Part shown: piece after piece, positions 20,154-57,287 of the stretch
How the letters are laid out: each line of letters starts with the position of its first letter
Numbering within the stretch: the stretch's first letter is position 1
NCBI RefSeq assembly: GCF_000744815.1
Contig: NZ_JQMQ01000004.1
Coordinates: forward strand, 310,001-374,000
Direction of reading: 5' to 3'
DNA: 64,000 nucleotides
From: Phaeacidiphilus oryzae TH49
GTDB taxonomy: Bacteria; Actinomycetota; Actinomycetes; Streptomycetales; Streptomycetaceae
Made by a program: the position numbers and the translations under genes
Notes under the pieces: generated by a model
What the model saw: only the letters and a program-made list of their open reading frames with translations
Databases searched by the model: none
Told to the model about the DNA's origin: nothing

Positions 20154-20466
20154 GGCTCGTCCTCCGTTCGCTCGTCTGCGCCCGGCCGCGGCCTGCGGCC
20201 GTCGATTCCACCCTCCCTCGCTCCGGCCCCCGGCGGGCGGCCCCTTGACGGTCCGTATACGCCGGCGGCTCCCCTCTTGACGCTTTCCTGACGCCGTCGG
20301 GCTCGACCGCCGCCGTCTGGGTAGTCGCTGACGTTTCGTCAGGGATGCCTGGCGCGGCTGGGGCGATCGCCCCCGAACGGCCCAGCCGATCCCCGCGCGT
20401 CGCACTGCGCGGGCGGCGGCTTCCGCCGCATGCTGGAGTCAGGGCGAGTCGGCGAGAGGAGAGGCG
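20154..20466. other. Divergent intergenic region with a conserved palindrome
   Basis: This 313-bp stretch separates the four-helix protein from the hypothetical gene at 20467. It holds CTGACG-TTT-CGTCAG (20328-20342), one of five related palindromes in the window, and TTGACG (20277-20282) as a possible -35. No RNA gene or open frame with a ribosome site was seen. Confidence 0.5.
20328..20342. promoter_or_regulatory. TGACG-N3-CGTCA palindrome, copy 1
   Basis: CTGACG-TTT-CGTCAG is a perfect 15-bp inverted repeat, 125 bp before the 20467 gene. It matches the palindromes before the mce operon (39295) and the LLM operon (53594). Confidence 0.55.
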
Positions 20467-39294: not shown

Positions 39295-39307
39295 TGACGG
39301 GTCGTCA
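39295..39307. promoter_or_regulatory. TGACG-N3-CGTCA palindrome, copy 3 (mce operon)
   Basis: TGACG-GGT-CGTCA lies in an AT-richer stretch between rbsD and the mce operon, where its promoter must be. TCTTG and CAGTAGAT-type elements follow, but no clear -35/-10 pair could be fixed. It is a candidate operator for mce regulation. Confidence 0.55.
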
Positions 39308-39355
39308 AATTTCTCCGGCATGACTCTTGTTTCAGTAGATTCCGGTTACTAGAGT

Positions 39356-39376
39356 CCCGAGAGCTTCGATCTCGGG
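39356..39376 (+). promoter_or_regulatory. Leader hairpin upstream of the mce operon
   Basis: CCCGAGA (39356-39362) pairs with TCTCGGG (39370-39376) around a 7-nt loop. It lies about 65 nt before the strong ribosome site at 39433 and could be a 5' UTR structure or a weak terminator from rbs. Confidence 0.4.
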
Positions 39377-39442
39377 AGGACCTGCGCCATCGCCGAGTAC
39401 GCGCCTGCCAGGGACCAGACTCCGCCCCAACCGGAGGACCGC

Positions 39443-39484
39443 ATGATGCCTTGCGATGCGTCCGCTCGCCAGAGGCGGGTGTGA
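39443..39484 (+). CDS. Possible 13-residue leader peptide coupled to yrbEA
   Basis: An ATG-ATG start with a perfect GGAGG 5 nt upstream opens a frame of 13 codons (MMPCDASARQRRV). It ends in TGATG, where the TGA shares its A with the ATG of yrbEA. The yrbEA ATG itself has only a weak ribosome site, so initiation may depend on reading this leader. Alternatively, a single missing base between 39448 and 39482 would make it the true N-terminus of YrbEA, as in three other frameshifts seen here. Confidence 0.4.
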   Translation: MMPCDASARQRRV

Positions 39485-40257
39485 TGGCGGAGAGAGACCT
39501 GATCACCCGGCCGCTGGCGCCCATCGGCGGCTTCTTCGCGATGTCCCTGGACACCTTCCGGGCGATGTTCCGGCGCCCGTTCCAGCTGCGGGAGTTCCTG
39601 GAGCAGACGGTGTTCATCGCCGGGGTCTCGATCTTCCCGGCGATCATGCTCACGGTGCCCTTCCTCGGGGTGGTCATCTACCTGGTCAACCAGCTGCTGA
39701 TGCAGATCGGCGCGATCGACCTGGCCGGCGCGGGCGTCGGCCTGGCGGTGATCCGGGAGATCGGGCCGATGGCCAGCGTCCTGGTGGTGGCCGGAGCCGG
39801 GGCCACGGCGATCTGCGCCGACCTCGGCTCCCGGAAGATCCGCGAGGAGATCGACGCCCTCCAGGTGCTCGGTGTGGACCCCGTTCACCGGCTGGTGGTG
39901 CCCCGGGTGCTGGCCTCCACTCTGGTGGCGGTGCTGCTGAACGCCGTCGTCTCGGCGGTCGCCATCGGCACCGGCTATGTCCTCTCTGTGGCCCTGCAGG
40001 GCGCCAGTCCGGGGCAGTTCGCGGCCAACCTGACCCTCCTCACCCACCTCTCCGACTTCGTGGTCAGCCAGATCAAGGCGGCGTCCTTCGGGCTCTGCGC
40101 CGGTCTGGTCGCCTGCTACCGCGGGCTCACCACCGCGGGCGGCGCCAAGGGCGTCGGCGACTCCGTCAACCAGACCGTCATCCTGGCCATCGTCCTGCTG
40201 TTCGTCTTCAACGTGCTGATCACCGCGGTCTATCTGCAACTCGGCGGCGGGGCATAG
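39484..40257 (+). CDS. YrbEA, MlaE-family permease of the mce operon
   Basis: This 257-residue integral membrane protein of the MlaE/YrbE family is one of two permease subunits of the Mce lipid (or sterol) import ABC system. About five to six membrane segments are visible, with the family motifs FLGVVIYLVNQLLMQIGA, VIREIGPMASVLVVAGAGAT and ADLGSRKIREEIDALQVLGV, the EExDAL loop that contacts the ATPase. The ATG at 39484 is used; an in-frame TTG at 39451 is an alternative. It forms a heterodimer with YrbEB. The mce ATPase (MceG/Mkl) is not encoded next to it. Confidence 0.9.
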   Translation: MAERDLITRPLAPIGGFFAMSLDTFRAMFRRPFQLREFLEQTVFIAGVSIFPAIMLTVPFLGVVIYLVNQLLMQIGAIDLAGAGVGLAVIREIGPMASVLVVAGAGATAICADLGSRKIREEIDALQVLGVDPVHRLVVPRVLASTLVAVLLNAVVSAVAIGTGYVLSVALQGASPGQFAANLTLLTHLSDFVVSQIKAASFGLCAGLVACYRGLTTAGGAKGVGDSVNQTVILAIVLLFVFNVLITAVYLQLGGGA

Positions 40258-40268
40258 GGGGCGGCGCG

Positions 40269-41111
40269 GTGGCGAACACGATTCCCCGGCGGCGCCGAGG
40301 CGCGGACTCGGCGGTGCTCCGCACCCTGGAGACGATCGGCGACCAACTCTCCTTCTACACCAGGTCCCTGCTGTGGGTGTACCGGGCGCTCGGCCGCTAC
40401 CACCGGGAGATCGTCCGCCAGCTGGCCGGCGTCACCTTCGGCACCGGGGCGCTGGCCATGGTCGGCGGCACTGCGGTGATCGTCGCCTTCCTCACCGGCA
40501 GTGCCGGGGTCGAGATCGCACTGGAGGGCTACTCGCAGCTCGCCAACATCGGTGTGGAGGCGATCAGTGGATTCGTGTCGGCCTATGTGAACACCCGGAT
40601 CTCCGCCCCCCTGATCGCCGGCGTGGCGCTGATCGCCACCGTGGGCTCGGGCTTCACCGCCGAGATCGGCGCGATGCGGATCAGCGACGAGGTGGACGCC
40701 CTGGAGGTGATGGCGGTGCCCACCCTGCCGTACCTGGTCACCACCAGGCTGATCGCCGGCTTCGTCGCGGTCACCCCGCTGTACGCGGTCTCCCTCTTCA
40801 TGTCCTACGCCCTCACCCGGCTGACCGTGGTCGACTTCTACGGCCAGTCCTCCGGCTCCTACGACCACTACTTCGGCACCTTCCTGGTGCCCAGGGACAT
40901 CCTCAGCTCCTTCCTGGAAGTGCTGGTGATGTCGGTCGTGGTGATGGGGGTGCACTGCTACTACGGCTACACGGCCGGCGGCGGCCCGGCCGGGGTCGGC
41001 CGGGCGGTCGGCCGCGCGGTGCGGCTCTCCCTGGTCGGCATCATGTTCGTCGCCCTGGCCATGAGCCTGATCCTGTACGGCCACTCCGACACCCTCCACG
41101 TCTCCAGGTGA
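40269..41111 (+). CDS. YrbEB, MlaE-family permease of the mce operon
   Basis: This second MlaE-type permease has 280 residues. It shares GALAMVGGTAVIVAFLTGSA, the EIGAMRISDEVDALEVMAV loop and a C-terminal CYYGYTAGGGPAGVGRAVGR that corresponds to the conserved GY.A.GGA.GVG segment. The N-terminus is basic (MANTIPRRRRG). It starts with GTG 12 bp after yrbEA and is followed after 9 bp by the first MCE gene, AGGTGG lying between. Together the pair forms the membrane core of the importer. Confidence 0.92.
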   Translation: MANTIPRRRRGADSAVLRTLETIGDQLSFYTRSLLWVYRALGRYHREIVRQLAGVTFGTGALAMVGGTAVIVAFLTGSAGVEIALEGYSQLANIGVEAISGFVSAYVNTRISAPLIAGVALIATVGSGFTAEIGAMRISDEVDALEVMAVPTLPYLVTTRLIAGFVAVTPLYAVSLFMSYALTRLTVVDFYGQSSGSYDHYFGTFLVPRDILSSFLEVLVMSVVVMGVHCYYGYTAGGGPAGVGRAVGRAVRLSLVGIMFVALAMSLILYGHSDTLHVSR

Positions 41112-41120
41112 GGTGGTGAC

Positions 41121-42428
41121 ATGGCGCTGACCGTCGCTCCCGGCTCGCCCCGCCCGCCCGGGCCGGGCCCCAGGGCCGCCCGCCGGGCCGCCCCCAGGAC
41201 CGAGCGGGCACTGCGGCTGCGCAACCGGCTGCTCGGCGTGCTCGGCACGGTCCTGGTGCTGGGCGTGGTCGGCCTGGTGGTCGCCGACTACCTCCAGGTC
41301 TTCACCCCGGCGGTGCGGGTGACGGTGGAGGCCGACCGCTCGGGTCTGCTGACCGCTCCCGGCTCCGACGTCACCCTGCGCGGGGTCACCGTGGGCCAGG
41401 TGCGCTCGGTCCAGGCGGTGGACGGGGGAGCCCGGCTCACTCTGGCCCTGAGCCCCCGCCAGGTCCGGTTCATCCCCGCCGACGTCACCGCCGAGGTCGT
41501 CGCCCCCACCGTCTTCGGCACCAAGTACGTCGACCTGGAGGCGCCGGCCGGCGGCTCCGGCGGCGGTCCGCGGATCAGCGCGGGAGCCGTCCTCACCTCG
41601 GCCCGGGTGGGCACCGAGATCAACACCCTGTTCCAGAACCTCTACCAGCTGCTGACCGCCGTCCAGCCGGCCAAGGTCAGTGCCACCCTGGGCGCGCTGG
41701 CCGGCGCCCTCGACGGCCGCGGCTACCGGCTGGGCGGCTACATCGACCAGCTGAACACCTACCTCACCGACCTCGACCCCGGCCTGGCCCCGCTCCGCAC
41801 CGACCTGGCCCGGCTCCCGGCGGTCGCCGGCGCATACGCCAAGGCCGTCCCCGACCTGGCCCGCACCCTGGACAACCTCCGCACCACCAGCCGCACCCTG
41901 GTCACCCGGCAGGCCCAGCTGGACGCCTTCCTGCTGGACATGGGCGGACTCTCCGGACACGCGAACCGGTTCCTCACCGACAACGAGCAGGCGCTGCCCA
42001 ACGCCCTCGCCATGGTCCAGCCGATCACCGCCACCATGGCCCGCTACTCCTCCGAGTTCCCCTGCCTCTTCGCCTCCGCGAACCAGCTGCGGATCCAGTC
42101 GCTGCCCTCACTGACCGGCAATCCCGGGCTGAACGGCATCGTCACCATCCTCCCCGGTCGCGACCCGTACACCTACCCCGGCGACCTGCCGAAGACCGTG
42201 GACGTCGGGCCCGGCTGCGACGGCGGTCCGATCACCAAGGCCCAACTCCCGTATCCGCACATCAAGTTCGACGACGGCTCGGGGTCGGTCAACGACAACA
42301 CCAGCAACGCGGAGACCGTCGGCGTCCCGCCGCTCGCCGTCCAGCTCTTCGGCGAGGACGCCGGCAGGGCGATCGCCAAGTCGCTGGCGGACGCCAGGGC
42401 GAAGGCGAAGGGGGCGGGGTCGAAGTGA
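41121..42428 (+). CDS. MCE family protein, MceA position
   Basis: This 435-residue protein has one N-terminal membrane anchor (LLGVLGTVLVLGVVGLVVA) and an MlaD/MCE domain at about residues 65-145 (VRVTVEADRSGLLTAPGSDV, LRGVTVGQVRSV). A long helical region follows (about 150-320), then a C-terminal part with the SSEFPCLFASANQLRI segment found in the Mce1 helical C-domain. MCE proteins assemble as heterohexamers forming a tunnel for lipids between the outer lipid layer and the YrbE permease. Its stop overlaps the next gene by 4 nt (GTGA). Confidence 0.92.
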   Translation: MALTVAPGSPRPPGPGPRAARRAAPRTERALRLRNRLLGVLGTVLVLGVVGLVVADYLQVFTPAVRVTVEADRSGLLTAPGSDVTLRGVTVGQVRSVQAVDGGARLTLALSPRQVRFIPADVTAEVVAPTVFGTKYVDLEAPAGGSGGGPRISAGAVLTSARVGTEINTLFQNLYQLLTAVQPAKVSATLGALAGALDGRGYRLGGYIDQLNTYLTDLDPGLAPLRTDLARLPAVAGAYAKAVPDLARTLDNLRTTSRTLVTRQAQLDAFLLDMGGLSGHANRFLTDNEQALPNALAMVQPITATMARYSSEFPCLFASANQLRIQSLPSLTGNPGLNGIVTILPGRDPYTYPGDLPKTVDVGPGCDGGPITKAQLPYPHIKFDDGSGSVNDNTSNAETVGVPPLAVQLFGEDAGRAIAKSLADARAKAKGAGSK

Positions 42429-43468
42429 GCGGGCCTCGGGCCGGGGTCGGCGTGAAGGTGCTGGTGATCGTGGTGATCGGGGGCGTCCTCACGGCCGGGA
42501 TCGCCGCCGTCCTCGGCGGCTTCCGGCAGGAGAGCACCCACACCTACCATGCGGTCTTCAGCAGCGCCTCCGGGCTGGTCGCCGGGCAGGACGTACGGGC
42601 CGCCGGGGTCTCGGTCGGCCAGGTGGAGAAGGTGGCCCTGCGCTCGGACGACCGGGCCGAGGTCACCTTCACCGTGGACCGCACGGTGCCGATGACCACC
42701 ACCACCCAGGCCTCCATCCGCTACCAGAACCTGGTCGGCGACCGCTATCTGCAGCTCTCCCCGGGCGCGGCGGCGGACGGCCGCCGCCCGGCCGCGCTGG
42801 CCCCCGGCGCCCTCATCCCGCTCGACCGCACCGCTCCCGCCCTCGACCTCGACGAGCTCTACAACGGCTTCACCCCACTGCTCCAGGGACTGGCCCCGCA
42901 ACAGGTCAACCAGCTCTCCGGCGAGCTGATCGAGGTCCTCCAGGGGGAGGGCGGCAGCGTGCAGCAGCTGCTCGGCGACATCGGCTCGCTCACCTCCACG
43001 CTGGCCGACCGGGACCGGGTGATCGGAGAGCTGGTGAGCGAGTTCGACTCCGCGCTCGGCAACCTGGACGCCCACCGCGGCCAGCTCTCCGACCTGATCA
43101 GCCGGTTGCAGCACCTGGTCAGCGGGCTCTCCCAGGACCGCAAGCAGATCGGCGACTCGCTCTCCGGGGTCAGCCGGCTCACCACCTCGGTCGGCGGACT
43201 GCTCCAGGAGACCCGTCCGGACATCACCGGGACGGTCGGCCAGACCGACCGCCTGGCCGCCCTGCTGGAGGCGAACTCGGGTCTGCTGCAGAAGGACCTG
43301 ACCCGGCTTCCGGTCGACTACCGACTGCTCTCCCGGCTCGGCGCCTACGGGCAGTTCTTCAACTTCTACCTGTGCCAGGTCCAGATCATGGTCACGGGAC
43401 CGGACGGGAAGCCGGTCACGCTGCCGGCTCTGAACAGCGAGATCTCGCGCTGCAAGGCGAACGGCTGA
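42425..43468 (+). CDS. MCE family protein, MceB position
   Basis: This is the second MCE subunit, 347 residues. It has an anchor (VKVLVIVVIGGVLTAGIAA), an MCE domain at about 40-120 (YHAVFSSASGLVAGQDVRAA, RYQNLVGDRYLQLSPG) and a helical domain with many Gln/Leu heptads (GGSVQQLLGDIGSLTSTLAD). The Cys pair in the C-terminus (FYLCQVQIM and SRCKANG) is typical of MceB. The GTG start overlaps the MceA stop. Confidence 0.92.
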   Translation: MSGPRAGVGVKVLVIVVIGGVLTAGIAAVLGGFRQESTHTYHAVFSSASGLVAGQDVRAAGVSVGQVEKVALRSDDRAEVTFTVDRTVPMTTTTQASIRYQNLVGDRYLQLSPGAAADGRRPAALAPGALIPLDRTAPALDLDELYNGFTPLLQGLAPQQVNQLSGELIEVLQGEGGSVQQLLGDIGSLTSTLADRDRVIGELVSEFDSALGNLDAHRGQLSDLISRLQHLVSGLSQDRKQIGDSLSGVSRLTTSVGGLLQETRPDITGTVGQTDRLAALLEANSGLLQKDLTRLPVDYRLLSRLGAYGQFFNFYLCQVQIMVTGPDGKPVTLPALNSEISRCKANG

Positions 43469-43484
43469 GGGGCGGGGCGCGGAC

Positions 43485-44498
43485 ATGAAGAGCTTTCAGG
43501 AGATGAACCGGAGGCGGGTCGGCCTGGTCGGCCTGGTCGTGCTGGCCCTGGTGGTGGCGCTCGCCCTGGAGTCGGGGACCATCTACCGCGACCTGACCAG
43601 CGACGGCTACCGGGCGCAGTTCAGCGAGGCCGGGAACCTCGGCAAGGGCGACGACGTGGAGGTGGCCGGCGTCAAGGTCGGCGAGGTCACCGGGATCGGC
43701 CTGGACCGCGGCCACGTCGAGGTCGCCTTCACCGTCCGCCACGGCGTCCACCTGGGCGCCGCCACCCGGGCCGCGATCAGCACCGAGTCCCCGCTCGGCC
43801 ACAAGTTCCTCGGCCTCACCTCGGCCGGCGGCGGCGTGCTGGCCTCCGGCGGGGAGATACCGCTGGCCAGGACCACCGCGCCGTACGACATCCAGCAGGT
43901 GCTCGACGACGCCACAGACACCGTCGGCAGGATCGACACCGGGCAGCTGGCCAAGGCCTTCGACACCACCGCGCAGACCTTCCAGAACACCCCCGCCCAG
44001 ACCCGCGCCGCCCTCCAGGGGGTCTCCGCGCTCTCCGCCACCATCGCCACCCGTGACCAGGCGCTGCGCCGGCTCCTCGCCCGGGCCAGGAGCGTGACCG
44101 GCATCCTCGCCCAGCGCACCGGCAACCTCAACGCCCTCTTCGACGACGGGAACCTGCTGCTCGACGAGCTCTACCAGCGGCGGCAGGACATCCAGGCGGT
44201 ACTGGTCAACGCCACCGCGATGGTCCGGCAGCTGCGCGGGCTCGTCAGCGACAACCAGCGGCGGCTCGGCCCCGCGCTGGACCACCTGGACTCGGTGGTC
44301 CGGCTGCTCAACCGCAACAAGGGCAACATCGACGCGGCCATCGACGGTCTCCGCTCCTACGCCACCGGTCTGGGCGAGGCGGTGGGGTCGGGGCCGTTCT
44401 TCTACGGCTACATCCAGGACATCATCCCCACCAGCGGCCTGCCGGTCGTCCGAAAGCTCGCCGCGGGCGGGGGACTCACCGGGGGGAGCGGCAAGTGA
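43485..44498 (+). CDS. MCE family protein, MceC position
   Basis: This is the third MCE subunit, 337 residues, with a basic N-terminus and anchor (RRVGLVGLVVLALVVALALE). The MCE domain lies at about 35-115 (YRAQFSEAGNLGKGDDVEVA, LGHKFLGLTSAGGG), followed by the tunnel-forming helical domain (ALLARARSVTG-type heptads, LLLDELYQRRQDIQAVLVNA). The ATG at 43485 lies 16 bp after MceB; the stop overlaps the next GTG. Confidence 0.92.
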   Translation: MKSFQEMNRRRVGLVGLVVLALVVALALESGTIYRDLTSDGYRAQFSEAGNLGKGDDVEVAGVKVGEVTGIGLDRGHVEVAFTVRHGVHLGAATRAAISTESPLGHKFLGLTSAGGGVLASGGEIPLARTTAPYDIQQVLDDATDTVGRIDTGQLAKAFDTTAQTFQNTPAQTRAALQGVSALSATIATRDQALRRLLARARSVTGILAQRTGNLNALFDDGNLLLDELYQRRQDIQAVLVNATAMVRQLRGLVSDNQRRLGPALDHLDSVVRLLNRNKGNIDAAIDGLRSYATGLGEAVGSGPFFYGYIQDIIPTSGLPVVRKLAAGGGLTGGSGK

Positions 44499-45862
44499 GA
44501 GTCCCGAAGCCCGACCGGGCCGCCCTGCGCCGACTCCGGCTGCCGGCCGGACCGGTCTCCCTGGCCCCGCGCGGCGGCGGCCGCCCGGCCCGCGGGCCCC
44601 GCCGGCTGCGGGTGATCGCCACCGTGCTGGGGCTGCTCCTGGTCGCCGCCCTGGTCGGCGCCTTCTGGCCCGGGCCGCAGGAGCGGCACCTCACCGCGTA
44701 CTTCAGCCAGACCATCGGCCTCTACCCGGGCGACGGGGTGCGGGTGCTCGGCGTGCCGATCGGCCGGGTGGACCGGGTGACCTCGGAGGGCGACCGGGTC
44801 CGGGTGGACCTCAGCTACCACGCCGCCGACCCGCTGCCGCCCGGCGCCCGCGCGGTGATCGTCGCCCCCACCCTGGTCTCCGGCCGCTATGTGCAGCTCA
44901 CCCCCGCGTACACCGGAGGCGCCCAACTCGCCGACGGGGCCGTCATCCCGGAGTCCCGCACGGCCGTACCGGTGGAATGGGACGACATCGAGCAGCAGAT
45001 CACCAAGCTGGCCACGGACCTCGGGCCGAAGGGCGCCAACCGGGACGGCTCGGTCAGCCGGCTGCTGGACGCCACCGCAGGCAACCTGAACGGGAACGGG
45101 GCCGAACTGCACCGCTCGATCCAGCGGCTGTCGGCGGCGGTGAGCACCCTCTCCCAGGGCAGCGGGGACTTCTTCGCCACCGTCGGCAACCTGCAGAGGC
45201 TGACCGCGGCGCTGGCCGAGAACGACACCGAGGTGGCCGCCTTCCTCAGGCGACTCGACTCGGTCTCCGGGGTGCTGGACGGCGACCGGGCCGACCTGGC
45301 GGCCACCCTCTCCACCCTCGACCAGTCGCTGTCCGCCGTACGGGAGTTCATCGACGGCAACAAGGACCGGATCGGCAGGACCCTCCAGGACCTGGACACC
45401 GAGACCTCCGCGCTGTCCGCCAAGCGGCAGCAGCTGGCGGACATCCTCCAGGTGGCGCCGGCCGCGCTGGGGAACTTCCAGAACATCTACAACCCGGTGG
45501 ACGGCGGCATGGACGGCGCCTTCGCCACCACCTGGCTGCAGGACCCGGCGGTCTTCATCTGCTCCACCGTCCTCTCCCTCGGCGGCACGCCGAAGGCCTG
45601 CCAGCAGGCGGTCGCCCCGCTGGCCGACCTGCTGAAGATGGACAACCTGCCGGTCGGCCTGGACCTGCTGAACCGGGACGGGACCCCGAACCAGGCAAAT
45701 CCGAACAGCAAGTCGCTGTCCTCGGGATCGGGATCGGGTGCGGGGTCGGGTGCGGGTTCTTCGGGCTCCGGCTCGGCCTCGGGCTCCGGCTCGGGTTCCG
45801 GCTCGGGTTCCGGGAGCGGGTCGGGGTCCGGGCTGCTCGGTCTGCTGGGAGGCGGAAAGTGA
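44495..45862 (+). CDS. MCE family protein, MceD position, with Gly/Ser tail
   Basis: This fourth MCE subunit has 455 residues, with an anchor (IATVLGLLLVAALVGAF), an MCE domain at about 65-145 (LTAYFSQTIGLYPGDGVRVL, APTLVSGRYVQLTP) and a helical domain. From about residue 408 the sequence is almost only Gly and Ser with a few Ala, ending in GLLGLLGGGK. MceD tails are often Pro-rich in mycobacteria; a Gly/Ser tail is a flexible extracellular extension of unknown role. It overlaps both neighbours by 4 nt. Confidence 0.9.
   Translation: MRVPKPDRAALRRLRLPAGPVSLAPRGGGRPARGPRRLRVIATVLGLLLVAALVGAFWPGPQERHLTAYFSQTIGLYPGDGVRVLGVPIGRVDRVTSEGDRVRVDLSYHAADPLPPGARAVIVAPTLVSGRYVQLTPAYTGGAQLADGAVIPESRTAVPVEWDDIEQQITKLATDLGPKGANRDGSVSRLLDATAGNLNGNGAELHRSIQRLSAAVSTLSQGSGDFFATVGNLQRLTAALAENDTEVAAFLRRLDSVSGVLDGDRADLAATLSTLDQSLSAVREFIDGNKDRIGRTLQDLDTETSALSAKRQQLADILQVAPAALGNFQNIYNPVDGGMDGAFATTWLQDPAVFICSTVLSLGGTPKACQQAVAPLADLLKMDNLPVGLDLLNRDGTPNQANPNSKSLSSGSGSGAGSGAGSSGSGSASGSGSGSGSGSGSGSGSGLLGLLGGGK
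45721..45835 (+). repeat. TCGGGN/TCCGGN hexamer array in mceD
   Basis: Degenerate 6-bp units (TCGGGA, TCGGGT, TCCGGC) encode the Ser-Gly tail. Changes of unit number stay in frame. Confidence 0.6.
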
Positions 45863-47211
45863 CGGGGGCCGGCGGCGGCGCCGGTTCAGGGCCGACGCGG
45901 CGGCGTGCGCTGCTGGCCGGCGGGGTGGTGGGCGGCCTCCTCGCGCTCTGCGGCTGCCAGTTCGACGGGGTCGGCTCCTGGCGGCTGCCGCTCTCCGCCG
46001 GCACCGGCGCCCACTCCTACACCGTCACCGCGGAGATGGCCGACGTCGACAACCTGGTCCCGAACGCCGAGGTCAAGGTGGGCGACGTGACCGTGGGCAC
46101 GGTCCGGAAGATCGCCTTCGACGACTGGCACGCCCGGCTCACCCTCTCGCTCAAGGACGGCGTCCACCTGCCGGGCAACGCGGTGGCGACGCTCGGTCAG
46201 AAGAGCGTGCTGGGCGCGGAGTACATCCAGCTGGCCGGGCCCGCCGACGCGCCGGCCGCCGACGCACCGGCCGCCGGCGTGCTGGAGGCCGGCGACGACA
46301 TCCCGCTCTCCCGGACCGGCCAGTACCCCTCCACCGAGGACCTGCTGAGCGCCCTCTCCCTGCTGCTCAACGGCGGGGGGCTCAACCAGCTGCGGACCAT
46401 CACCACCGAGCTGAACCACATCCTCGGCGGCCACGAGGACCAGACCCGCCAGCTGCTGGCGCACCTCGACACCTTCGTCGGCACACTGAACGGCGAGCGG
46501 GCGAACATCGTCAGCTCGATCGACCGCCTGGACCAGCTCGGGGGCGCCCTCTCCCGGCAGAACCGCGCCCTGGCCGGCGCCGTCGCGGAGGTGCCGCAGG
46601 GCATCTCGGTGCTGGACCAGGAGCACGGGCAGCTGGTCGGCATGCTCGGGGACGTCGCCGAACTCGGCCGGACGGCGGGCACGGTGATCGACCGGAGCCG
46701 GCAGAACCTGGAGCTCGACCTCAAGCAACTCCAGCCGGTGGTGGGCAGGTTGGCGGACGCCGGGCAGAACCTGCCGGAGTCCCTCTCCGAGCTGCTGACC
46801 TACCCGTTCCCGGGCGAGGCCGTACCCAGGATGATCAAGGGCGACTATATGAACCTGTTCGTCAAGCTGGACCTCCGGACCAGCACCCTCAGCCGGAACT
46901 GGCTCACCGGGCTGCCGGTGCTGGGCGACCTGCTGAACAGGACGGGCTCGCAGCAGAAGGTCAACCCGCTGACCCAGCCGCTGAAGCCGGGCGGCGGCCT
47001 CCTCGGGGGGCTGCTGGGAACGGGGGCCGGCTCGTCCGGGTCGGGCTACTCGGGGACGGATTCCTCCGGGGGAACGGGCACCGGAGCCACCGGGTCCACC
47101 GGTTCCGGCGGTTCCGGCGGCTCCACCGGTTCCGGCGGCGGTTCGAGCGGGGGCAGCGGCAGCGGCGGCGGCCTCCTCGGCGGGCTCCTCGGACTAGGGG
47201 GGAACAATTGA
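45859..47211 (+). CDS. MCE family lipoprotein, MceE position (LprK-like)
   Basis: The fifth MCE subunit (450 residues) has a lipoprotein-type start: RRRALLAGGVVGGLLALCGC with the modifiable Cys at the end of LCGC, matching the rule that MceE-position proteins are lipoproteins (LprK in Mycobacterium). The MCE domain lies at about 50-130 (DVDNLVPNAEVKVGDVTVG, LGQKSVLGAEYIQLAG). A helical domain and YPFPGEAVPRMIKGDYMNLF, a well-conserved MceE segment, follow. The last 80 residues are Gly/Ser/Thr-rich, ending in LLGGLLGLGGNN. GTG start and stop both overlap the neighbours by 4 nt. Confidence 0.92.
   Translation: MTGAGGGAGSGPTRRRALLAGGVVGGLLALCGCQFDGVGSWRLPLSAGTGAHSYTVTAEMADVDNLVPNAEVKVGDVTVGTVRKIAFDDWHARLTLSLKDGVHLPGNAVATLGQKSVLGAEYIQLAGPADAPAADAPAAGVLEAGDDIPLSRTGQYPSTEDLLSALSLLLNGGGLNQLRTITTELNHILGGHEDQTRQLLAHLDTFVGTLNGERANIVSSIDRLDQLGGALSRQNRALAGAVAEVPQGISVLDQEHGQLVGMLGDVAELGRTAGTVIDRSRQNLELDLKQLQPVVGRLADAGQNLPESLSELLTYPFPGEAVPRMIKGDYMNLFVKLDLRTSTLSRNWLTGLPVLGDLLNRTGSQQKVNPLTQPLKPGGGLLGGLLGTGAGSSGSGYSGTDSSGGTGTGATGSTGSGGSGGSTGSGGGSSGGSGSGGGLLGGLLGLGGNN
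47029..47177 (+). repeat. Gly/Ser/Thr-coding low-complexity array in mceE
   Basis: Repeats of TCCGGCGGT and TCCACCGGT type encode the MceE tail. It parallels the mceD tail and has the same GLLGGLLG-like cap. Confidence 0.5.
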
Positions 47212-51000: not shown

Positions 51001-51405
51001 TCACATCACCGCGTCGGTCTCCAGCGGCCCGGCGGTGATCCGGATCTCCCGTACCCGCACCGGCTCCTCGTCGGCCAGGTAGAAGATGTGGATGAACGGG
51101 GCGCTGACCACCCGCTCCGGCGCGTCCTTCCGGGCCATCGTCGCCTCCCCGCGCAGCAGCCGTACGCCGCCGTCGGCGACCCAGTACTCCAGCACCCGGT
51201 GGCTGATCTCCAGCGGCTCGTCGATCCTGACGAAGAAGTCCTGGATGGCCCGCCGCCCGTCGACCCGCTCGGTGCCGAAGTGCATCACGGTGTCCTCGGT
51301 GAGCACCTCGAAGCCCGGCTCGAAGTCCAGGGTGTCGATGGCCGACATGAAGCCCAGCACCCATGCGGGCACCGCCGCCGCCCGCGCGTTCTCCGCCGCG
51401 GTCAT
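51001..51405 (-). CDS. SnoaL/NTF2-like protein
   Basis: This 134-residue protein is predicted to have the cone-shaped NTF2/SnoaL fold: FMSAIDTLDFEPGFEVLTED, MHFGTERVDGRRAIQDFFVR, HRVLEYWVADGGVRLLRGEA and FIHIFYLADEEPVRVREIRI. Family members are isomerases, hydrolases, cyclases or accessory proteins in aromatic degradation; the activity cannot be assigned. The ATG overlaps the MarR stop by 4 nt and GGAGAGG precedes it, so it is the second gene of a MarR operon and probably metabolises or senses the same compound. Confidence 0.8.
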   Translation of the reverse strand: MTAAENARAAAVPAWVLGFMSAIDTLDFEPGFEVLTEDTVMHFGTERVDGRRAIQDFFVRIDEPLEISHRVLEYWVADGGVRLLRGEATMARKDAPERVVSAPFIHIFYLADEEPVRVREIRITAGPLETDAVM

Positions 51406-51905
51406 CGGTCCTCTCCTCGGTCCGCCTCGCGGAGCTCCCGCTCCACCGCCAGCGCGGCCTGCCGCAGCCGCCGGTCGGTGCCGGTGATGTCCTCCGGCCC
51501 GAGGACGGAGTTGAGGGTGTCGCTGATCCGCAGCACCTCGGTGCCCATCTCGCGGAGCGCCGCCCGGCCCTCGCCGGTGAGGCCCAGGCACAGCGCCCGC
51601 TCGCTCTCCGGGTGCGGGCGGCGCGCCACCCAGCCGCGCTCCTCGAGCTGGGTGACCATCCGGGTCATCGTCTGCGGCCGGACGTAGCAGCGGCGGGCCA
51701 GTTGAGCCAGCGTGAGGCTGGGCTCGCGGTCCAGGATCCGCAGGGCGGTGTAGCTGGAGAGGGTCAGGTTCCAGGGGCGCAGCCGCAGGTTGCCGATCCG
51801 GCTGACCGCCCGCTCGAACCGGAACACCGCGTCGATCATCAGCGAGGCGTCGTCCAGCTCCGCCACCTCGGAGGACGCGGAGGACTCGGAGGGGTTGCTC
51901 GTCAT
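51402..51905 (-). CDS. MarR family transcriptional regulator
   Basis: This 167-residue MarR protein has a dimerisation helix (MIDAVFRFERAVSRIGNLRL), the winged HTH LSSYTALRILDREPSLTLAQ, RCYVRPQTMTRMVTQLEERG and WVARRPHPESERALCLGLTG. It is divergent from the flavin reductase gene. The intergenic DNA carries three GCATGCTT elements at about 20-bp intervals over the overlapping promoters, so it should repress both directions and be relieved by an aromatic-type ligand. The ATG at 51905 is preferred; longer N-termini in frame run into the operators. Confidence 0.87.
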   Translation of the reverse strand: MTSNPSESSASSEVAELDDASLMIDAVFRFERAVSRIGNLRLRPWNLTLSSYTALRILDREPSLTLAQLARRCYVRPQTMTRMVTQLEERGWVARRPHPESERALCLGLTGEGRAALREMGTEVLRISDTLNSVLGPEDITGTDRRLRQAALAVERELREADRGEDR

Positions 51906-51942
51906 TCCCGCAGCGTATCGGCCCTGCGGGGGCGAATTCATC

Positions 51943-51990
51943 AGCATGCTTGCTGTTGTGTTCGCATGCTTATAAGGTATCAGCATGCTT
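51943..51990. promoter_or_regulatory. Divergent promoter with triple GCATGCTT operator
   Basis: AGCATGCTT (51943-51951), GCATGCTT (51964-51971) and AGCATGCTT (51982-51990) are spaced 20 and 19 bp apart. Between the last two lies the palindrome CTTATAAG (51969-51976), which gives a -10 TATAAG on both strands. The third box contains the ATG of the flavin reductase gene, which lies 8 bp after the -10, so its mRNA is probably leaderless. Confidence 0.7.
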
Positions 51991-52479
51991 ACATCTTACT
52001 CCCGCCCCGACCCCCTGCGGTTCCGGTCGGTCCTGGGGCACTTCCCGAGCGGCGTCGCGGCGGTCACCGCCCGCGACCCGGAGGGCCGGCCGGTCGGCAT
52101 GGCGGTGTCCTCGTTCACCTCCGTCTCACTCGAACCGCCGCTGGTGGCCTTCCTGCCCGGCCGGAGCTCGACGACCTTCCCGCTGATCGCCGAGCACGGC
52201 ACCTTCTGCGTCAACGTCCTGGCGGACGGCCAGGAGGAGGTCTGCCGGCGGCTGTCGGCGCGCGGCGGCGACAAGTTCGCCGGACTCGACTGGCGGCCCG
52301 GGCCGCACGGCGACCCGGTGCTGGACGGGGTGGTGGCCTGGATCGGCTGCACCATCGAGTCGGTGCACGACGCCGGCGACCACCACATCGTGCTCGGCCG
52401 GGTGGACGGACTGGCCGCCGACACCGCCGCCAGCCCCCTCCTCTTCTTCCGCAGTGCCTACCACCAGGTCGCAGCCTGA
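51985..52479 (+). CDS. Flavin reductase family protein (two-component monooxygenase reductase)
   Basis: This 164-residue FMN-binding split-barrel protein of the HpaC/DIM6 type has the segments RFRSVLGHFPSGVAAVTARD, GMAVSSFTSVSLEPPLVAFL, FCVNVLADGQEEVCRRLS and the terminal PLLFFRSAYHQVAA with the conserved Arg/Tyr. It supplies FMNH2 by NAD(P)H oxidation to a partner monooxygenase; the LLM-class enzyme at 53665 is the natural partner. The start lies inside the third operator box and no ribosome site is present, hence leaderless. It is divergent from the MarR gene. Confidence 0.88.
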   Translation: MLTSYSRPDPLRFRSVLGHFPSGVAAVTARDPEGRPVGMAVSSFTSVSLEPPLVAFLPGRSSTTFPLIAEHGTFCVNVLADGQEEVCRRLSARGGDKFAGLDWRPGPHGDPVLDGVVAWIGCTIESVHDAGDHHIVLGRVDGLAADTAASPLLFFRSAYHQVAA

Positions 52480-52570: not shown

Positions 52571-53560
52571 ATGACGACCCTGACCCTGCCACTCTCCGAA
52601 GCCCGCGCGCTGGTCACCGACGCGATGGCCGCCTGCGGGCACACCGCCGCCGAGGCCGGCGCCATCGCCGACCACCTCCTCGACTGCGAGCTGCGCGGAC
52701 TGCCCTTCGGCGGCCTCGCCCGGGCGCTCTCCATAGCCGAGCGGATCCAGACGACCGCCACCCCGCGAACGGAGATCCGGACGGTCGCCGAGACCCCGGT
52801 GTCGGCCACCCTGGACGGCGGCGACCAGGTCGGCTACCTGGTCGGCCTGCGCGCCCTGGAGACCGCCGTGGCCAAGGCCCGCGCCCAGGGCATCGCCCTG
52901 GTGGGCGCCCGCAACACCTGGTACACCGGGATGTTCTCCTACTACCTGGAGAAGGCCGCCGCGGCCGGACTGGCCGGCCTGATCGCCGGCAGCGGCCCGG
53001 CCGTGGTCGCCCCGCACGGCGGCACCGAGGGCCGCTACGGCACCAACCCGATCGCCTTCGGCTTCCCCGCCGAACCCCACCCCGTCATCTGGGACATCGG
53101 CACCTCCGCGGTGATGCACGGCGAGGCGGTGCTGAAGTCCCGGCTGGGCCGGAAGCTGTCCCCGGGCCAGGCGTACGACGCCTCCGGCGCGCCCACCCTC
53201 GACCCGGCCGAGGCGCTCGGCGGGGCCCTCGGGGCCTGGGGCGGTCACAAGGGCTCGGGGCTCGCCCTGGTCGTCCAGCTGCTCGGGATGATGACCGGCG
53301 CGGCGGCCGATCCGCCCGGCATCTCCGACTGCGGCTTCCTGGTCGTCCTCTTCGACCCCGCGCACCTCACCGACGCCGAGGACTACCGCCGCCGGACGGA
53401 GGCACTGGCGGAGGCGGTCCGCGCCACCCGCCCGGTGGAGGGCGGCGAGCCGGTGCGGGTGCCCTTCGACCGGTCCGCGGCCGGCCGCGCCGAGGCGCTC
53501 CGCCGCGGCACCGTCGATGTGCCGGAGGAGGTCGTCTCGGCCCTCCGGCGCCGACCGTGA
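52571..53560 (+). CDS. Ldh_2 (malate/L-lactate dehydrogenase) family protein with altered active site
   Basis: This 329-residue protein of the NAD(P)H-dependent Ldh_2 family (malate, ureidoglycolate and delta1-piperideine-2-carboxylate reductases) shows DHLLDCELRGLPFGGLARAL at about 34-53, GARNTWYTGMFSYYLEKAAA, APHGGTEGRYGTNPIAFGFP and the closing GGHKGSGLALVVQLLGMMTG. The usual segment LxGHxSHGxxR is changed to LRGLPFGGLAR, so the conserved His residues (positions 44 and 47 here) are Leu and Gly. The cofactor-binding parts look intact. It therefore may use another acid/base or another substrate. The ATG has only a distant CCGGAGG. Confidence 0.82.
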   Translation: MTTLTLPLSEARALVTDAMAACGHTAAEAGAIADHLLDCELRGLPFGGLARALSIAERIQTTATPRTEIRTVAETPVSATLDGGDQVGYLVGLRALETAVAKARAQGIALVGARNTWYTGMFSYYLEKAAAAGLAGLIAGSGPAVVAPHGGTEGRYGTNPIAFGFPAEPHPVIWDIGTSAVMHGEAVLKSRLGRKLSPGQAYDASGAPTLDPAEALGGALGAWGGHKGSGLALVVQLLGMMTGAAADPPGISDCGFLVVLFDPAHLTDAEDYRRRTEALAEAVRATRPVEGGEPVRVPFDRSAAGRAEALRRGTVDVPEEVVSALRRRP

Positions 53561-53593: not shown

Positions 53594-53606
53594 TGACGGT
53601 TCGTCA
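53594..53606. promoter_or_regulatory. TGACG-N3-CGTCA palindrome, copy 5 (LLM operon)
   Basis: TGACG-GTT-CGTCA lies in the 104-bp gap between the Ldh_2 stop and the LLM start, 58 bp before that start. The position fits an operator for a new transcription unit and links it to the mce operon. Confidence 0.55.
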
Positions 53607-53664: not shown

Positions 53665-54693
53665 ATGCTTGAGTTCTTCACCGGGCTTCAGCCCCTGCAG
53701 GCCGGGGAGACCACCCCGGACGCCCTGCTCGACCGGGTCCGCGAGCTGGACCGCTCCCAGGTGATCGACCGGGTACTCGTCGGCTACTCGTCCACCTGGC
53801 CGCACAACCACGCCACCGCCCCCTTCGCGCTGGCCGCGAGCGAGCGCTTCTCGCCGATCGTCGCCCACCGGCCCGGGGTGATGGCCCCGGTCGCCGCCGC
53901 CCGCTACTTCGCCACCCTGGACGTGCTGGCCCGCGGCCGGCTCGCGATCAACGTGGTGGTCGGCGGTTCGGACAAGGACCTCCGCAGGGAGTCCGACGGC
54001 CTCCCGAAGGCCGAGCGGTACCGCCGGGCGGTGGAGTACCTGGACCTGGTCCGCCGGGCCTGGACCGAACCCGAGCCCTTCGACCACCGCGGCGCGTACT
54101 ACACCGCGGAGGCGGTGCGGCTGCAGACCAGGCCCGTGCGGGGGCAGGTGCCGATCTTCATGGGCGGGGAGAGCGCCGAGGCCGTCGACTTCGGCGCCCG
54201 CCACGCCGACCTCTACATGCTCTGGGGCGAACCGCTCGCCGGCACCGAGGAGCGCATCGAGCGGGTCAGCCGGGCCGCCGAGCGGTACGGCCGCGCCATG
54301 CGCTTCTCCCTCAGCCTGCGGCTCTTCGTCGGCGACACCGACGAGGAGGCCTGGGCGCGGGCCCGCGAGGTGGAGCGGCGGATCGCCGAGGCCTCCGGCA
54401 GCGGCGCCTTCCTCCGCTCCTCGTCCACCGACACCTCCACCGGCCGGCAGCGCGCCCTCGCCCTCACCGACGAGGAGCTGCACGACGACTGCTTCTGGAC
54501 CGGACTGACGAGACTGCTCGGCGGGTTCGCCAACTCGCAGGCCCTGGTCGGCTCCGAGGAGCGCATCCTGGACGCTCTGGGCAGGTACCGGGAGCTGGGC
54601 GTGGACGCCTTCCTCTTCACCACCGGCGCCGAGGCGGCCTGGGACCCCGCCCTGGAGGGCTTCCTGGCCCGGGCGAAGAAGGAGCTGGCATGA
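53665..54693 (+). CDS. LLM class flavin-dependent oxidoreductase (SsuD-like)
   Basis: This 342-residue bacterial luciferase-like monooxygenase has the TIM-barrel signatures DRVLVGYSSTWPHNHATAPF, MAPVAAARYFATLDVLARGR, INVVVGGSDKDLRRES and VPIFMGGESAEAVDFGARHA, closest to alkanesulfonate monooxygenase SsuD. It uses FMNH2 and O2; the flavin reductase at 51985 probably supplies it. No sulfonate transporter is adjacent, and the next genes encode CoA-thioester enzymes, so an organic acid precursor is a more likely substrate than a sulfonate. The stop overlaps the CoA ligase start by 4 nt. Confidence 0.88.
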   Translation: MLEFFTGLQPLQAGETTPDALLDRVRELDRSQVIDRVLVGYSSTWPHNHATAPFALAASERFSPIVAHRPGVMAPVAAARYFATLDVLARGRLAINVVVGGSDKDLRRESDGLPKAERYRRAVEYLDLVRRAWTEPEPFDHRGAYYTAEAVRLQTRPVRGQVPIFMGGESAEAVDFGARHADLYMLWGEPLAGTEERIERVSRAAERYGRAMRFSLSLRLFVGDTDEEAWARAREVERRIAEASGSGAFLRSSSTDTSTGRQRALALTDEELHDDCFWTGLTRLLGGFANSQALVGSEERILDALGRYRELGVDAFLFTTGAEAAWDPALEGFLARAKKELA

Positions 54694-56345
54694 CGGCGCA
54701 CGACACTCCCGGCAGCCTCGGCAGCCCCGGTCCGGACGAGGCCGACGGCACGGTCGGCGGGCTGATCGCGGCACGCGCGGCGGCGCACCCGGACCGGCCC
54801 GCACTGATCTGCGGGGACGCGCGGCTGACCTACCGCGAGCTCGACCAGGCGGTCACCGAGGTGGCCCGGGGCTTCGCGGCGCTCGGCGCCGTCCCCGGGG
54901 ACTCGGTCGGCATCCTCCTCCCCAACCGTCTCGAATACCTCCTCAGCTGGTTCGGCGCGGCCCGGGCAGGCCTGGTCGAGGTCCCGGTCAACGCCTCGTA
55001 CAAGGGCGCCTTCCTGGACCACGCGCTGCGCGTCGCCGATGTGCGGGTGCTGGTCACCGAGCCGGCGCTGCTCGACCTGGTGGCCGGGCTGCCCTCGCTC
55101 CCGCCCTCGCTGGCGCAGGTCGTGCTGCTGGACGGCGAGGCCGCCGGCGGCGGCCCGGCCGGGGGGCGCGGTCGGCTGCCCTCGCGGGTACGCCTCCTCG
55201 GCTGGGAGAGGATGCTGGCCGGCGGGTCGCCCGCGGAACTCCCGCGGGTCGGGCCCGCCGACCCGGTCGCGGTGATGCTGACCTCCGGGACCACCGGGCG
55301 CAGCAAGGGGGTGGTCTACCCCCACCGGATGCAGGTGGTGGCCGCCGCCGAGGCGGCCCTGCGGATGGCCACCGGGCCGGAGGAGCGCCTCTACACCTGC
55401 CTGCCGCTGTTCCACGGCGCCGCCCAGGTCAACCTCTCCCTCCACGCCCTCGCCGCCGGGGCCGCCCTGGTGCTCGGCCGGCGGTTCAGCGCCAGCCGGT
55501 TCTGGGACGAGCTGCGCCGCCACGAGGTCACCCAGTTCAACGCCCTCGGCTCGATCCTGCCCATGCTGCTGGCCCAGCCGCCGTCCCCGCGCGACCGCGA
55601 GCACCGGGCCCGCAAGGCCTTCGCGGCGCCGGCTCCGCCGCAGGTGCTCCACCCCTTCGAGGAGCGCTTCGGCGTCCATCTGGTCGAGGGGTACGGGCTC
55701 ACCGAGATCAAGAACGTCCTCTACAACCCGCTCGGCGCCCGCCGGGTCGGCTCCCTCGGACTGCCCACCCCCTCCACCGAGTTGGAGGTCCACGACGAGG
55801 CGGGCGACCGTGTGGAGCCCGGCCGGGTGGGCGAGATCGTCTACCGGCCGCGCCGGCCGGACATCATGTTCTCCGGCTACCGCGGCGACCCCGAAGCGAC
55901 GCTGGCCACCATGAAGGACCTCTGGTGGCACACCGGCGACCTGGGCCGCACCGACGAGGACGGCTACTTCTACTTCGTCGACCGCAAGAAGGACGCGCTG
56001 CGCCGGCGCGGCGAGAACATCTCCTCCCACGAGGTCGAGTCGGTGCTCCTCGCCTACCCCGGGGTGGTGGCCGCGGCGGCCGTGGCCACCCCCTCCGAGC
56101 TCGGCGAGGACGAGGTGCTGGCGGTCCTCCAGCCGGACACCGGAAGGCGGTTGGACCTCGCCGAGGTGTTCGCCCACTGCGACCGGTCCATGCCGCACTT
56201 CATGGTGCCCCGCTACTACCGGGTCGTGGACGCGCTTCCGTTGACCCCGACCGGCAAGGTCCGCAAGTCCGCCCTGCGGGAGAGCGGACGCGGGGAAGCC
56301 TGGGACGCGCAGTCCGCCGGCCTCAAGCCCACCCGGATCGTCTGA
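54690..56345 (+). CDS. AMP-dependent acyl-CoA synthetase/ligase (CaiC-like)
   Basis: This 551-residue adenylate-forming enzyme converts a carboxylic acid plus ATP and CoA to an acyl-CoA. The core motifs are VMLTSGTTGRSKGVVYPHRM (P-loop), GYGLTEIKNVLYNPL, WWHTGDLGRTDEDGYFYFVD, RRRGENISSHEVES and the C-terminal PTGKVRKSALRE with the catalytic Lys. Overall it resembles crotonobetaine/carnitine-CoA ligases and related medium-chain or cyclic acid ligases. The ATG overlaps the LLM stop (ATGA), so both are co-translated, and the lyase-like gene follows after 12 bp. The acid used is unknown. Confidence 0.9.
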   Translation: MTAHDTPGSLGSPGPDEADGTVGGLIAARAAAHPDRPALICGDARLTYRELDQAVTEVARGFAALGAVPGDSVGILLPNRLEYLLSWFGAARAGLVEVPVNASYKGAFLDHALRVADVRVLVTEPALLDLVAGLPSLPPSLAQVVLLDGEAAGGGPAGGRGRLPSRVRLLGWERMLAGGSPAELPRVGPADPVAVMLTSGTTGRSKGVVYPHRMQVVAAAEAALRMATGPEERLYTCLPLFHGAAQVNLSLHALAAGAALVLGRRFSASRFWDELRRHEVTQFNALGSILPMLLAQPPSPRDREHRARKAFAAPAPPQVLHPFEERFGVHLVEGYGLTEIKNVLYNPLGARRVGSLGLPTPSTELEVHDEAGDRVEPGRVGEIVYRPRRPDIMFSGYRGDPEATLATMKDLWWHTGDLGRTDEDGYFYFVDRKKDALRRRGENISSHEVESVLLAYPGVVAAAAVATPSELGEDEVLAVLQPDTGRRLDLAEVFAHCDRSMPHFMVPRYYRVVDALPLTPTGKVRKSALRESGRGEAWDAQSAGLKPTRIV

Positions 56346-56357
56346 GGGAGTGTCAGG

Positions 56358-57287
56358 ATGACCGACGGCGTGCTCATCCGGGAGGTCGCCCCCCGGCTGA
56401 CCTTCCAGGACCATATGGTGCCCACCGAGGTGAAGACCGAGTTCCTCCGGCGGCTGCTGGCGGCCGGGCTGCGCTCGTTCGAGCTCACCTCCTTCGTCCG
56501 GCCCGACCTGGTGCCGGGTCTGGCCGACGCCGAGGAGCTGTTCGCCCGCGTCCCGCGGCCGCCCGGCGCCGAGTTCGGCTGCTGCGTGGGCAACCGCCGG
56601 GGGCTCCAGCGGGCCCTGGACGCAGGCGCGGACAGTGCCTGCTACCTCCTCTCCGCCGACGAGGAGTTCGCCCGCGCCAACACCGGTCTCTCCACCGAAG
56701 AGTCACTGGCCGAGCTGGAGCGGACGGCGGCGCTCGCGGCCGACAGGGGCATCGGGTTCGGCAGCTACCTGATCTTCGCCTGGGGCGGTCCTGGCGGCCC
56801 GCCGCGCGGCCCCGCGGACCTGGAACCGCTGGCCCGGCGGCTGCTGGAGATCGGCGTGGACCACTGGATCCTCGCCGACTCCGCGGGCTACGCCGCCCCG
56901 CCGCAGATCCGGGAGCTGGCCCGCTGGGCGCTGGAGCACGTCCCGGCGGACAACCTCACCGTCCAGATCCACGACGCCCGCGGGATGGGGCTCGCCGCGC
57001 TGCTCCCGCTGCTCGAACTCGGGGTGCGCCGGATCGACGCCTCCCTCGCGGGCAGCGGCGGGCATCCGGCGATGCCGGGCAGCCAGGGCGGCGGACTGTG
57101 CACGGAGGACGCCGTCCAGCTCCTCGAACTCTCCGGGGTGGGTACCGGTATCGACCTGTCCGCCCTGGTCGACACCGCCAACTGGCTGGAGGAGGAGGTG
57201 GGCATCCCCTGCCGGGGCTTCCTCCGGCACACCGGCCCGGTGCCGAGGGCGGGCCGGGCCGCCCGACCGCTCGACTTCATCTGGTAG
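56358..57287 (+). CDS. HMG-CoA-lyase-like protein with non-canonical metal site
   Basis: This 309-residue TIM-barrel protein of the HMGL/DRE-TIM superfamily has the overall family order (VLIREVAPRLTFQDH, VKTEFLRRLLAAGLRSFELT, ILADSAGYAAPPQIRELARW, IDASLAGSGGHPAMPG), but key residues differ. The RDGLQ metal loop is RLTFQ (Leu14 for Asp). The HxH metal pair is QIH (Gln203, His205). The catalytic Cys of the GGCPY loop is His236 (GGHPAM). Either the reaction differs from HMG-CoA cleavage or the metal site is rebuilt. GGGAG precedes the ATG. Coupled with the acyl-CoA ligase, it probably acts on the CoA ester that enzyme makes. Confidence 0.82.
   Translation: MTDGVLIREVAPRLTFQDHMVPTEVKTEFLRRLLAAGLRSFELTSFVRPDLVPGLADAEELFARVPRPPGAEFGCCVGNRRGLQRALDAGADSACYLLSADEEFARANTGLSTEESLAELERTAALAADRGIGFGSYLIFAWGGPGGPPRGPADLEPLARRLLEIGVDHWILADSAGYAAPPQIRELARWALEHVPADNLTVQIHDARGMGLAALLPLLELGVRRIDASLAGSGGHPAMPGSQGGGLCTEDAVQLLELSGVGTGIDLSALVDTANWLEEEVGIPCRGFLRHTGPVPRAGRAARPLDFIW

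Follow-up and report, generated by a model that had tools for sequence, protein, structure and literature searches.

The 3-hydroxy-3-methylglutaryl-CoA (HMG-CoA) lyases, like the aldolases, synthases and carboxytransferases related to them, are regarded as metal enzymes. According to the review PMC6941031, the essential Mg of HMG-CoA lyase is bound by Asp42, Asn275, His233 and His235, and Arg41, Glu72, Tyr167 and Cys266 are rated most critical for catalysis. Among the luciferase-like monooxygenases (LLM), MsuD binds its sulfonate through Trp195, Arg225 and Arg296, and each Ala variant gave no measurable sulfite, as reported in PMC8234197. We analysed a 64,000-nt stretch of the 7.8-Mb genome of Phaeacidiphilus oryzae TH49 (hereafter the window; gene calls and coordinates are positions within it), the sole genome of its genus in the set that we searched. 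The window carries three adjacent plus-strand genes, for an LLM nearest to SsuD/MsuD (53665–54693; Bac_luciferase PF00296, 167.6 bits), an AMP-forming acyl-CoA ligase (54690–56345; PF00501, 244.1 bits, plus PF13193) and an HMG-CoA-lyase-like barrel protein (56358–57287; HMGL-like PF00682, 64.3 bits against a cut-off of 29). Judged by its sequence, the locus is best read as a MarR-controlled catabolic operon of an undescribed kind, which would end in a metal-free acyl-CoA enolate lyase.

An earlier reading of the DNA, made from the letters alone (the sequence-only reading), had described these genes as a tightly coupled, uncharacterised three-gene pathway and had noted that the lyase-like protein lacks the Asp of RDGLQ, the first His of HxH and the catalytic Cys. 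The coordinates and spacing were both correct, with a 4-bp overlap between the LLM and ligase genes and a 12-bp gap between the ligase and lyase-like genes, and the residue losses were as described: PRLTFQ replaces PRDGLQ, QIHD replaces HxHD and GGHP replaces GGCP. In addition, GGG replaces GN, so that the Asn Mg ligand is also gone, a loss absent from that reading. The genome also encodes an ordinary paralogue (L002, on the minus strand), in which RDGLQ, HFHD, GGCP and TGN are all intact.

We aligned 24 variants of this kind with nine ordinary relatives, eight taken from the best 20 of 363 plasmid records and one from the window's own genome. The 24 rows amount to about 22 independent ones, as L019 is identical to L020 and L003 is nearly so to L022; L003 and L004 come from one genome. 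Leu14, Gln203, His236 and Gly246 were present in 24/24 variants, at the places of human Asp42, His233, Cys266 and Asn275, where all nine ordinary relatives have Asp, His, Cys and Asn; none of the four replacements occurred among the nine. Arg13 (human Arg41), Gln17, Glu42 (Glu72), Asn79, Asp174, His205 (His235) and Glu250 were identical across all 24 variants and all nine ordinary relatives, and Tyr137, which aligns with human Tyr167, was invariant in the variants. We take Asp174 and Glu250 to be human Asp204 and Glu279. The lyase-like protein thus shares with HMG-CoA lyase the catalytic Arg, Glu and Tyr and one His ligand, the equivalent of His235, which is the sole survivor of the four Mg ligands in 24/24 proteins, whereas the catalytic Cys266 is His236 in every one of them. 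Read with the roles given in PMC6941031, the alignment therefore indicates that three of four Mg ligands were lost and three of four catalytic residues kept, the fourth having become His. Residues newly fixed in the variants were Cys75, Cys76, Trp170 and His236; Tyr178 and Cys248 were also invariant in the 24 variants, yet occurred in one and two of the nine ordinary relatives, respectively.

In the tree, the variants formed one side of a branch with a support of 100/100 and a length of 1.06 on the variant side of the midpoint root, several of the ordinary relatives being long branches themselves. The ratio dN/dS was 0.12–0.40 for the lyase-like gene versus 0.08–0.23 for the LLM gene (11 pairs, one of them with dS > 1), so the lyase-like protein is under constraint (purifying selection). 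The altered active site is therefore a conserved feature. The barrel is kept, as the sequence-only reading had stated: an AlphaFold2 model built from 19 sequences (mean pLDDT 81.1; residues 291–309 poor) had HMG-CoA lyases as its best PDB matches, among them 6nds by VIA (Z 38.8, rmsd 2.0, 294 residues), the Acinetobacter enzyme whose structure holds CoA and 3-methylmalate. Compared with HMG-CoA lyases (PF00682; 6nds, 1ydo, human 2cw6/3mp3), the protein has the same barrel at about 30% identity, but reaches 187.1 against a cut-off of 246 for the HMG-CoA lyase model PRK05692.

Few genomes carry the lyase-like gene. With E ≤ 1e-60 as the threshold, it turned up in two of 394 genomes of the family (its own and one other) and in one of 396 genomes of a phylum sample (its own), and the LLM search of the same 394 genomes gave matches in the same two. 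Scanning a collection of 84,980 species with two short peptide patterns yielded at least 19 loci. When 72,556 plasmid records were searched, four of them topped both the LLM and the lyase-like lists: two Pseudonocardia records, which are closely similar plasmids and leave three independent cases, one Polymorphobacter and one Paraburkholderia record. The lyase-like protein matched them at 54–64%, the next match being 39% among the best 20 of 363 records, and the LLM at 57–79%, with 43% the highest other match among the best 12 of 83.

We compared the window with 23 other loci (L004 and L006–L027; 21 actinobacterial and two proteobacterial), including three of the four plasmid records. An Ldh_2-family dehydrogenase, the LLM, the ligase and the lyase-like protein were encoded together in all 23, within spans of 4.6–9.6 kb; the ligase match of L014 consisted of two frames. 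The gene order was LLM, ligase, lyase-like in 21 loci and LLM, lyase-like, ligase in the two proteobacterial ones, so the genes kept company despite the reordering. The LLM was the best conserved of the four, with 69–87% identity to the window protein in 18 other loci and 57–58% in the proteobacterial ones. A MarR relative was found in 21/23 loci (tblastn), a MarR or helix-turn-helix regulator being annotated in the remaining two; a flavin reductase gene was found in 18/23 and a major facilitator superfamily (MFS) gene in 15/23. The conserved gene company that the sequence-only reading had wanted sought in other genomes is thus there, and we consider it almost certain that the conserved operon is real. 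No description of the gene set was found in our literature searches, which went by titles and the openings of abstracts and mostly excluded subscription papers; within that scope, the pathway is uncharacterised, as had been claimed.

The operon runs flavin reductase, Ldh_2, LLM, ligase, lyase-like, with the genes for MarR and a SnoaL-like protein divergent from it. The flavin reductase, the presumed source of FMNH2, lies at 51985–52479 on the plus strand (Flavin_Reduct PF01613, 157.2 bits); its closest NCBIfam model is HsaB, at 195.1 bits and below the cut-off of 230. The Ldh_2-family dehydrogenase-like protein follows at 52571–53560 on the same strand (PF02615, 264.5 bits). On the minus strand, the MarR-family regulator occupies 51402–51986 (PF01047, 62.6 bits), limits that are those of the open reading frame; its true start probably lies nearer 51905. 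The MarR gene has a 4-bp overlap with that of the SnoaL_2-fold small protein (51001–51405, minus strand; PF12680, 30.0 bits against 27). All seven proteins exceeded their Pfam cut-offs, and the flavin reductase, Ldh_2 and SnoaL-like neighbours named in the sequence-only reading are all present. None of the seven reached a curated NCBIfam cut-off among the matches listed (the best 25 of 105 for the ligase, and none at all for the SnoaL-like protein), and for this reason the reactions cannot be read from family names. The best-scoring model for the ligase, PRK06155, covered it at near full length with 502.7 against a cut-off of 722. The Ldh_2 protein shares PF02615 with sulfolactate, ureidoglycolate and malate/lactate dehydrogenases, and its nearest named model, sulfolactate dehydrogenase NF040650, scored 161.3 against 500.

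With its flavin reductase, the window LLM has the composition of a two-component FMNH2-dependent LLM monooxygenase (PF00296, PF01613), and because the reductase is in the operon the enzyme probably uses FMNH2. F420 in place of FMN appears less likely, since genes for the flavin reductase and RibBA are present, although a small gene with an F420_oxidored domain occurs in both proteobacterial loci. SsuD and MsuD have in common with the window protein the LLM family, the flavin reductase partner and the active-site Trp (Trp187, corresponding to Trp195 of MsuD). They differ from it in that the places of MsuD Arg225 and Arg296, counted along the SsuD/MsuD alignment, are Ser217 and Leu285 in 24/24 LLM proteins, and the window protein scored 163.2 bits against a cut-off of 518.2 for the alkanesulfonate monooxygenase equivalog TIGR03565. 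We therefore rejected a role as alkanesulfonate monooxygenase, as both sulfonate-binding Arg residues are gone. A wider reading as alkanesulfonate or sulfolactate degradation was suggested by the top-scoring models (SsuD, sulfolactate dehydrogenase) together with an oxidoreductase with a Mo-co_dimer domain in locus L026. We rejected it as the main reading because of the lost Arg pair, the scores far below the cut-offs and the absence of any tblastn match to the oxidoreductase in the 22 other loci. That gene, a molybdopterin oxidoreductase gene of Polymorphobacter (L026:9412–10632) whose domain is as in sulfite oxidases, lies upstream of the cluster with a porin gene adjoining.

Three palindromic copies of a presumed MarR operator lie between the MarR and flavin reductase genes (motif matches, no strand assigned): AGCATGCTT at 51943–51951, CGCATGCTT at 51963–51971, with its centre 20 bp from that of the first, and AGCATGCTT again at 51982–51990, centred 19 bp further on. 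In the window this last copy contains the flavin reductase ATG (51985–51987), and several other loci show the same arrangement, which is in keeping with a leaderless message that its repressor covers. Counted as GCATGC either followed by TT or preceded by AA, the motif occurred 84 times in the 23 loci versus an average of 8.4 and a maximum of 13 in 20 first-order Markov simulations, and 76 of the 84 sites lay between 60 nt inside and 400 nt before the start of a cluster gene; these counts include the near-copies L019/L020 and L004/L022. The sites stood at the starts of genes for flavin reductase, MarR, MFS, Ldh_2, LLM, SnoaL_4, RibBA, PrpD and NIPSNAP proteins. The operator GCATGCTT was found at cluster genes in 21/23 loci, all except the two proteobacterial ones, and likely marks a MarR regulon across the 21 actinobacterial loci (L004, L006–L025); from the placement of the motif we infer that MarR binds it. 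In the window's own genome, a stricter form of the motif with one mismatch allowed gave three matches at the cluster and one elsewhere; the reversed control gave two, so that here the place of the matches is telling and their number is not.

Around the shared set, the loci fell into two types. The first, which is the window's own type by sequence, comprises loci part of which carry PaaI-like, TcuA-like, NIPSNAP, PrpD-like, RibBA or SnoaL relatives. A hotdog (PaaI-like) gene was found in 12/23 loci, a NIPSNAP gene in seven and a full-length PrpD-like gene in four. A TcuA-like FAD dehydrogenase was full length in eight loci and partial in four, and the one that we scanned scored 413 bits, above the cut-off of 369. 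RibBA occurred in six loci, in five of them beside the cluster with the operator and in one 10 kb away. Relatives of the window SnoaL-like protein (66–68% identity) lay near four of the 23 clusters (L008, L014, L015 and L021). The second type (L004, L018–L020, L022 and L023; 6/23) has SnoaL_4 and a diverged type II dehydroquinase, with a CMD protein in four of the six; the dehydroquinase of L004 is AroQ-like (PF01220, 92.1 bits) and does not reach the AroQ cut-offs. Its usual active-site Asn, Tyr and His are presumably retained. Operator sites at the starts of the SnoaL_4, RibBA, PrpD and NIPSNAP genes tie those extras to the pathway. We rejected the accessory genes as core steps since none of them is general to the 23 loci. 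The window cluster has none of them except SnoaL; no close TcuA relative was found in its genome (best match 41%, at the same place as a 583-bit match to the TcuA model), and a search of that genome for NIPSNAP, made without a positive control, gave no match.

Several further features were seen around these genes. RibBA genes with the operator motif at their start were present in L006 (3863–5113), L007, L009, L010 and L016, and Rhodococcus triatomae (L024:8663–9325) has a shorter, diverged RibB-domain gene that overlaps the end of the lyase-like frame. Partial TcuA-like matches of 10–50% of the length lie 3′ of the lyase-like gene in L008, L009, L010 and L015, as if decaying. The dehydroquinase gene of L004 (13380–13973) is directly 3′ of the lyase-like gene, and likewise in L018, L019, L020, L022 and L023. 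The flanks of L024 and L025 hold, within about 16 kb of the cluster, genes for an acetoacetyl-CoA-synthetase-like ligase, a glyoxalase/VOC-fold protein and an FAA hydrolase, and resemble aromatic degradation.

From the chemistry of the families, we propose the following course for the pathway. An inducer, either the substrate or an early intermediate, would free the three operators covering the flavin reductase start from MarR. The Ldh_2 dehydrogenase would form a keto group beside a carboxylate, and the LLM, fed reduced FMN by the reductase, would insert oxygen at the carbonyl in a Baeyer–Villiger reaction or an oxidative decarboxylation, giving a carboxylic acid that the ligase would convert to its CoA thioester. 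The lyase-like protein would handle the enolate of this thioester through the kept Arg13, Glu42 and Tyr137, with His236, at the place of the Cys, and His205 serving as acid and base in place of a Mg-chelated hydroxy acid, and would cut a C–C bond by a retro-Claisen or retro-aldol reaction without a divalent metal. These steps are consistent with the chemistry of the families concerned, as are the FMNH2 oxygenation, CoA activation and C–C cleavage suggested in the sequence-only reading. We put the mechanism forward tentatively: with metal-free cleavage included, it is plausible, and rather more likely to be wrong in some part than right throughout.

The last step is where other explanations compete. 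Retention of the catalytic Arg, Glu and Tyr while the Mg site was lost (roles as given in PMC6941031) would also suit a metal-free acyl-CoA hydrolase, dehydratase, isomerase or epimerase that cuts no C–C bond, and so would the variation of the surrounding steps, with PaaI-like genes in 12, AroQ-like genes in six and full-length PrpD-like genes in four of the 23 loci. A hydrolase would, however, be partly redundant with the thioesterase-like gene present in 12/23 loci, and HMG-CoA lyases are its closest relatives of solved structure; we consider a non-cleaving role somewhat unlikely. The invariance of His236, Cys75, Cys76 and Cys248 in 24/24 variants is what would be expected of new ligands, and the protein might accordingly be metal-dependent at a moved site made of His205 and His236, perhaps with Cys75, Cys76 or Cys248, and holding a softer metal such as Zn. 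Position 236 is, however, the place of the catalytic Cys and not of a ligand in the enzyme as described in PMC6941031, and such a site seems to us unlikely. That metal ligands and the catalytic Cys are both lost is also the mark of a pseudoenzyme, and the protein could be non-catalytic, binding or channelling the CoA ester or tethering the ligase to the monooxygenase; but the replacements are uniform, Arg13, Glu42, Tyr137, Asp174 and Glu250 are kept and selection is purifying, all of which make this improbable.

The substrate is a separate matter. The sequence-only reading had suggested that a palindrome shared with an mce operon points to a lipid, terpenoid or sterol-like substrate, imported by the mce system and degraded here. 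The mce operon (an MlaE permease and four MlaD/Mce4_CUP1 proteins, 39451–45862) is indeed the upstream neighbour in this genome, the window cluster has no MFS gene, and the dyad TGACGnnnCGTCA precedes both the mce operon (at 39295) and the LLM gene (53594–53606, TGACGGTTCGTCA; motif match, no strand assigned). One further genomic dyad site (L053) lies between P450-like and thiolase-like frames, named by eye. The shared palindrome is thus real, but the site before the LLM gene is one of a genome-wide set: six dyads were found in the window versus 0.14 expected (at 20329, 38448, 39295, 48626, 49299 and 53594), and a longer form, allowed up to one mismatch, had 50 matches in the genome, with none for the reversed control. 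At 20 genomic dyad places examined, the site was recognised in 18 and a reading-frame start was nearby in eight; the dyad is likely the site of a global regulator. The exact 13-bp dyad was not found in any of the 23 other loci, nor was a match to the mce-region frames (plus strand 39300–46000, at least 200 residues), whereas 15 of these loci have a symporter-like MFS gene. The best model for five MFS proteins scanned from the clusters was a metabolite/H+ symporter (346–370 bits against a cut-off of 443), followed by ProP or TcuC, also below their cut-offs. We therefore regard the importer explanation as quite unlikely, with a lipid-like substrate weakly supported and a small polar organic acid, judged by these genes, more likely than a lipid. 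In this one genome a link to lipid uptake is possible, because its cluster lacks an MFS gene.

Our preferred reading remains a catabolic operon under MarR that would close with a metal-free acyl-CoA enolate lyase, and several observations weigh against it. The loss of three ligands is still compatible with a relocated metal site, and none of the NCBIfam matches listed for the seven proteins attains its cut-off. We took the order of the steps from what the families usually catalyse, and an Ldh_2 enzyme may act as a reductase. A flavin reductase gene was not found in the locus stretch of five of the 23 loci (L018, L019, L020, L023 and L026), and no operator was found at the cluster genes of the two proteobacterial loci (0/4 sites). 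The window cluster has no MFS gene, and relatives in its genome match at no more than 38%, so the small-acid substrate is drawn from other species.

All the parts come from known families; the novelty lies in the lyase clade that has lost most of its metal site and in its pathway. Put most broadly, a clade of DRE-TIM-type barrels would have exchanged its Mg site for a metal-free His/Cys one, with which it would cut or rearrange a CoA thioester. This reaction would close a catabolic pathway that depends on oxygen and is as yet undescribed, its genes being borne by both plasmids and chromosomes in Actinomycetota and Proteobacteria. We think this proposal possible and hold it with more doubt than confidence. 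The oxygenase is an LLM type set apart from the alkanesulfonate monooxygenases by the lost Arg pair. A branch that is conserved and under selection although most of its metal site is gone would reveal another way to the chemistry of the HMG-CoA lyases and their kin, and the fixed gene company with its common operator offers a direct route to the substrate, namely the molecule that releases MarR from its operator.

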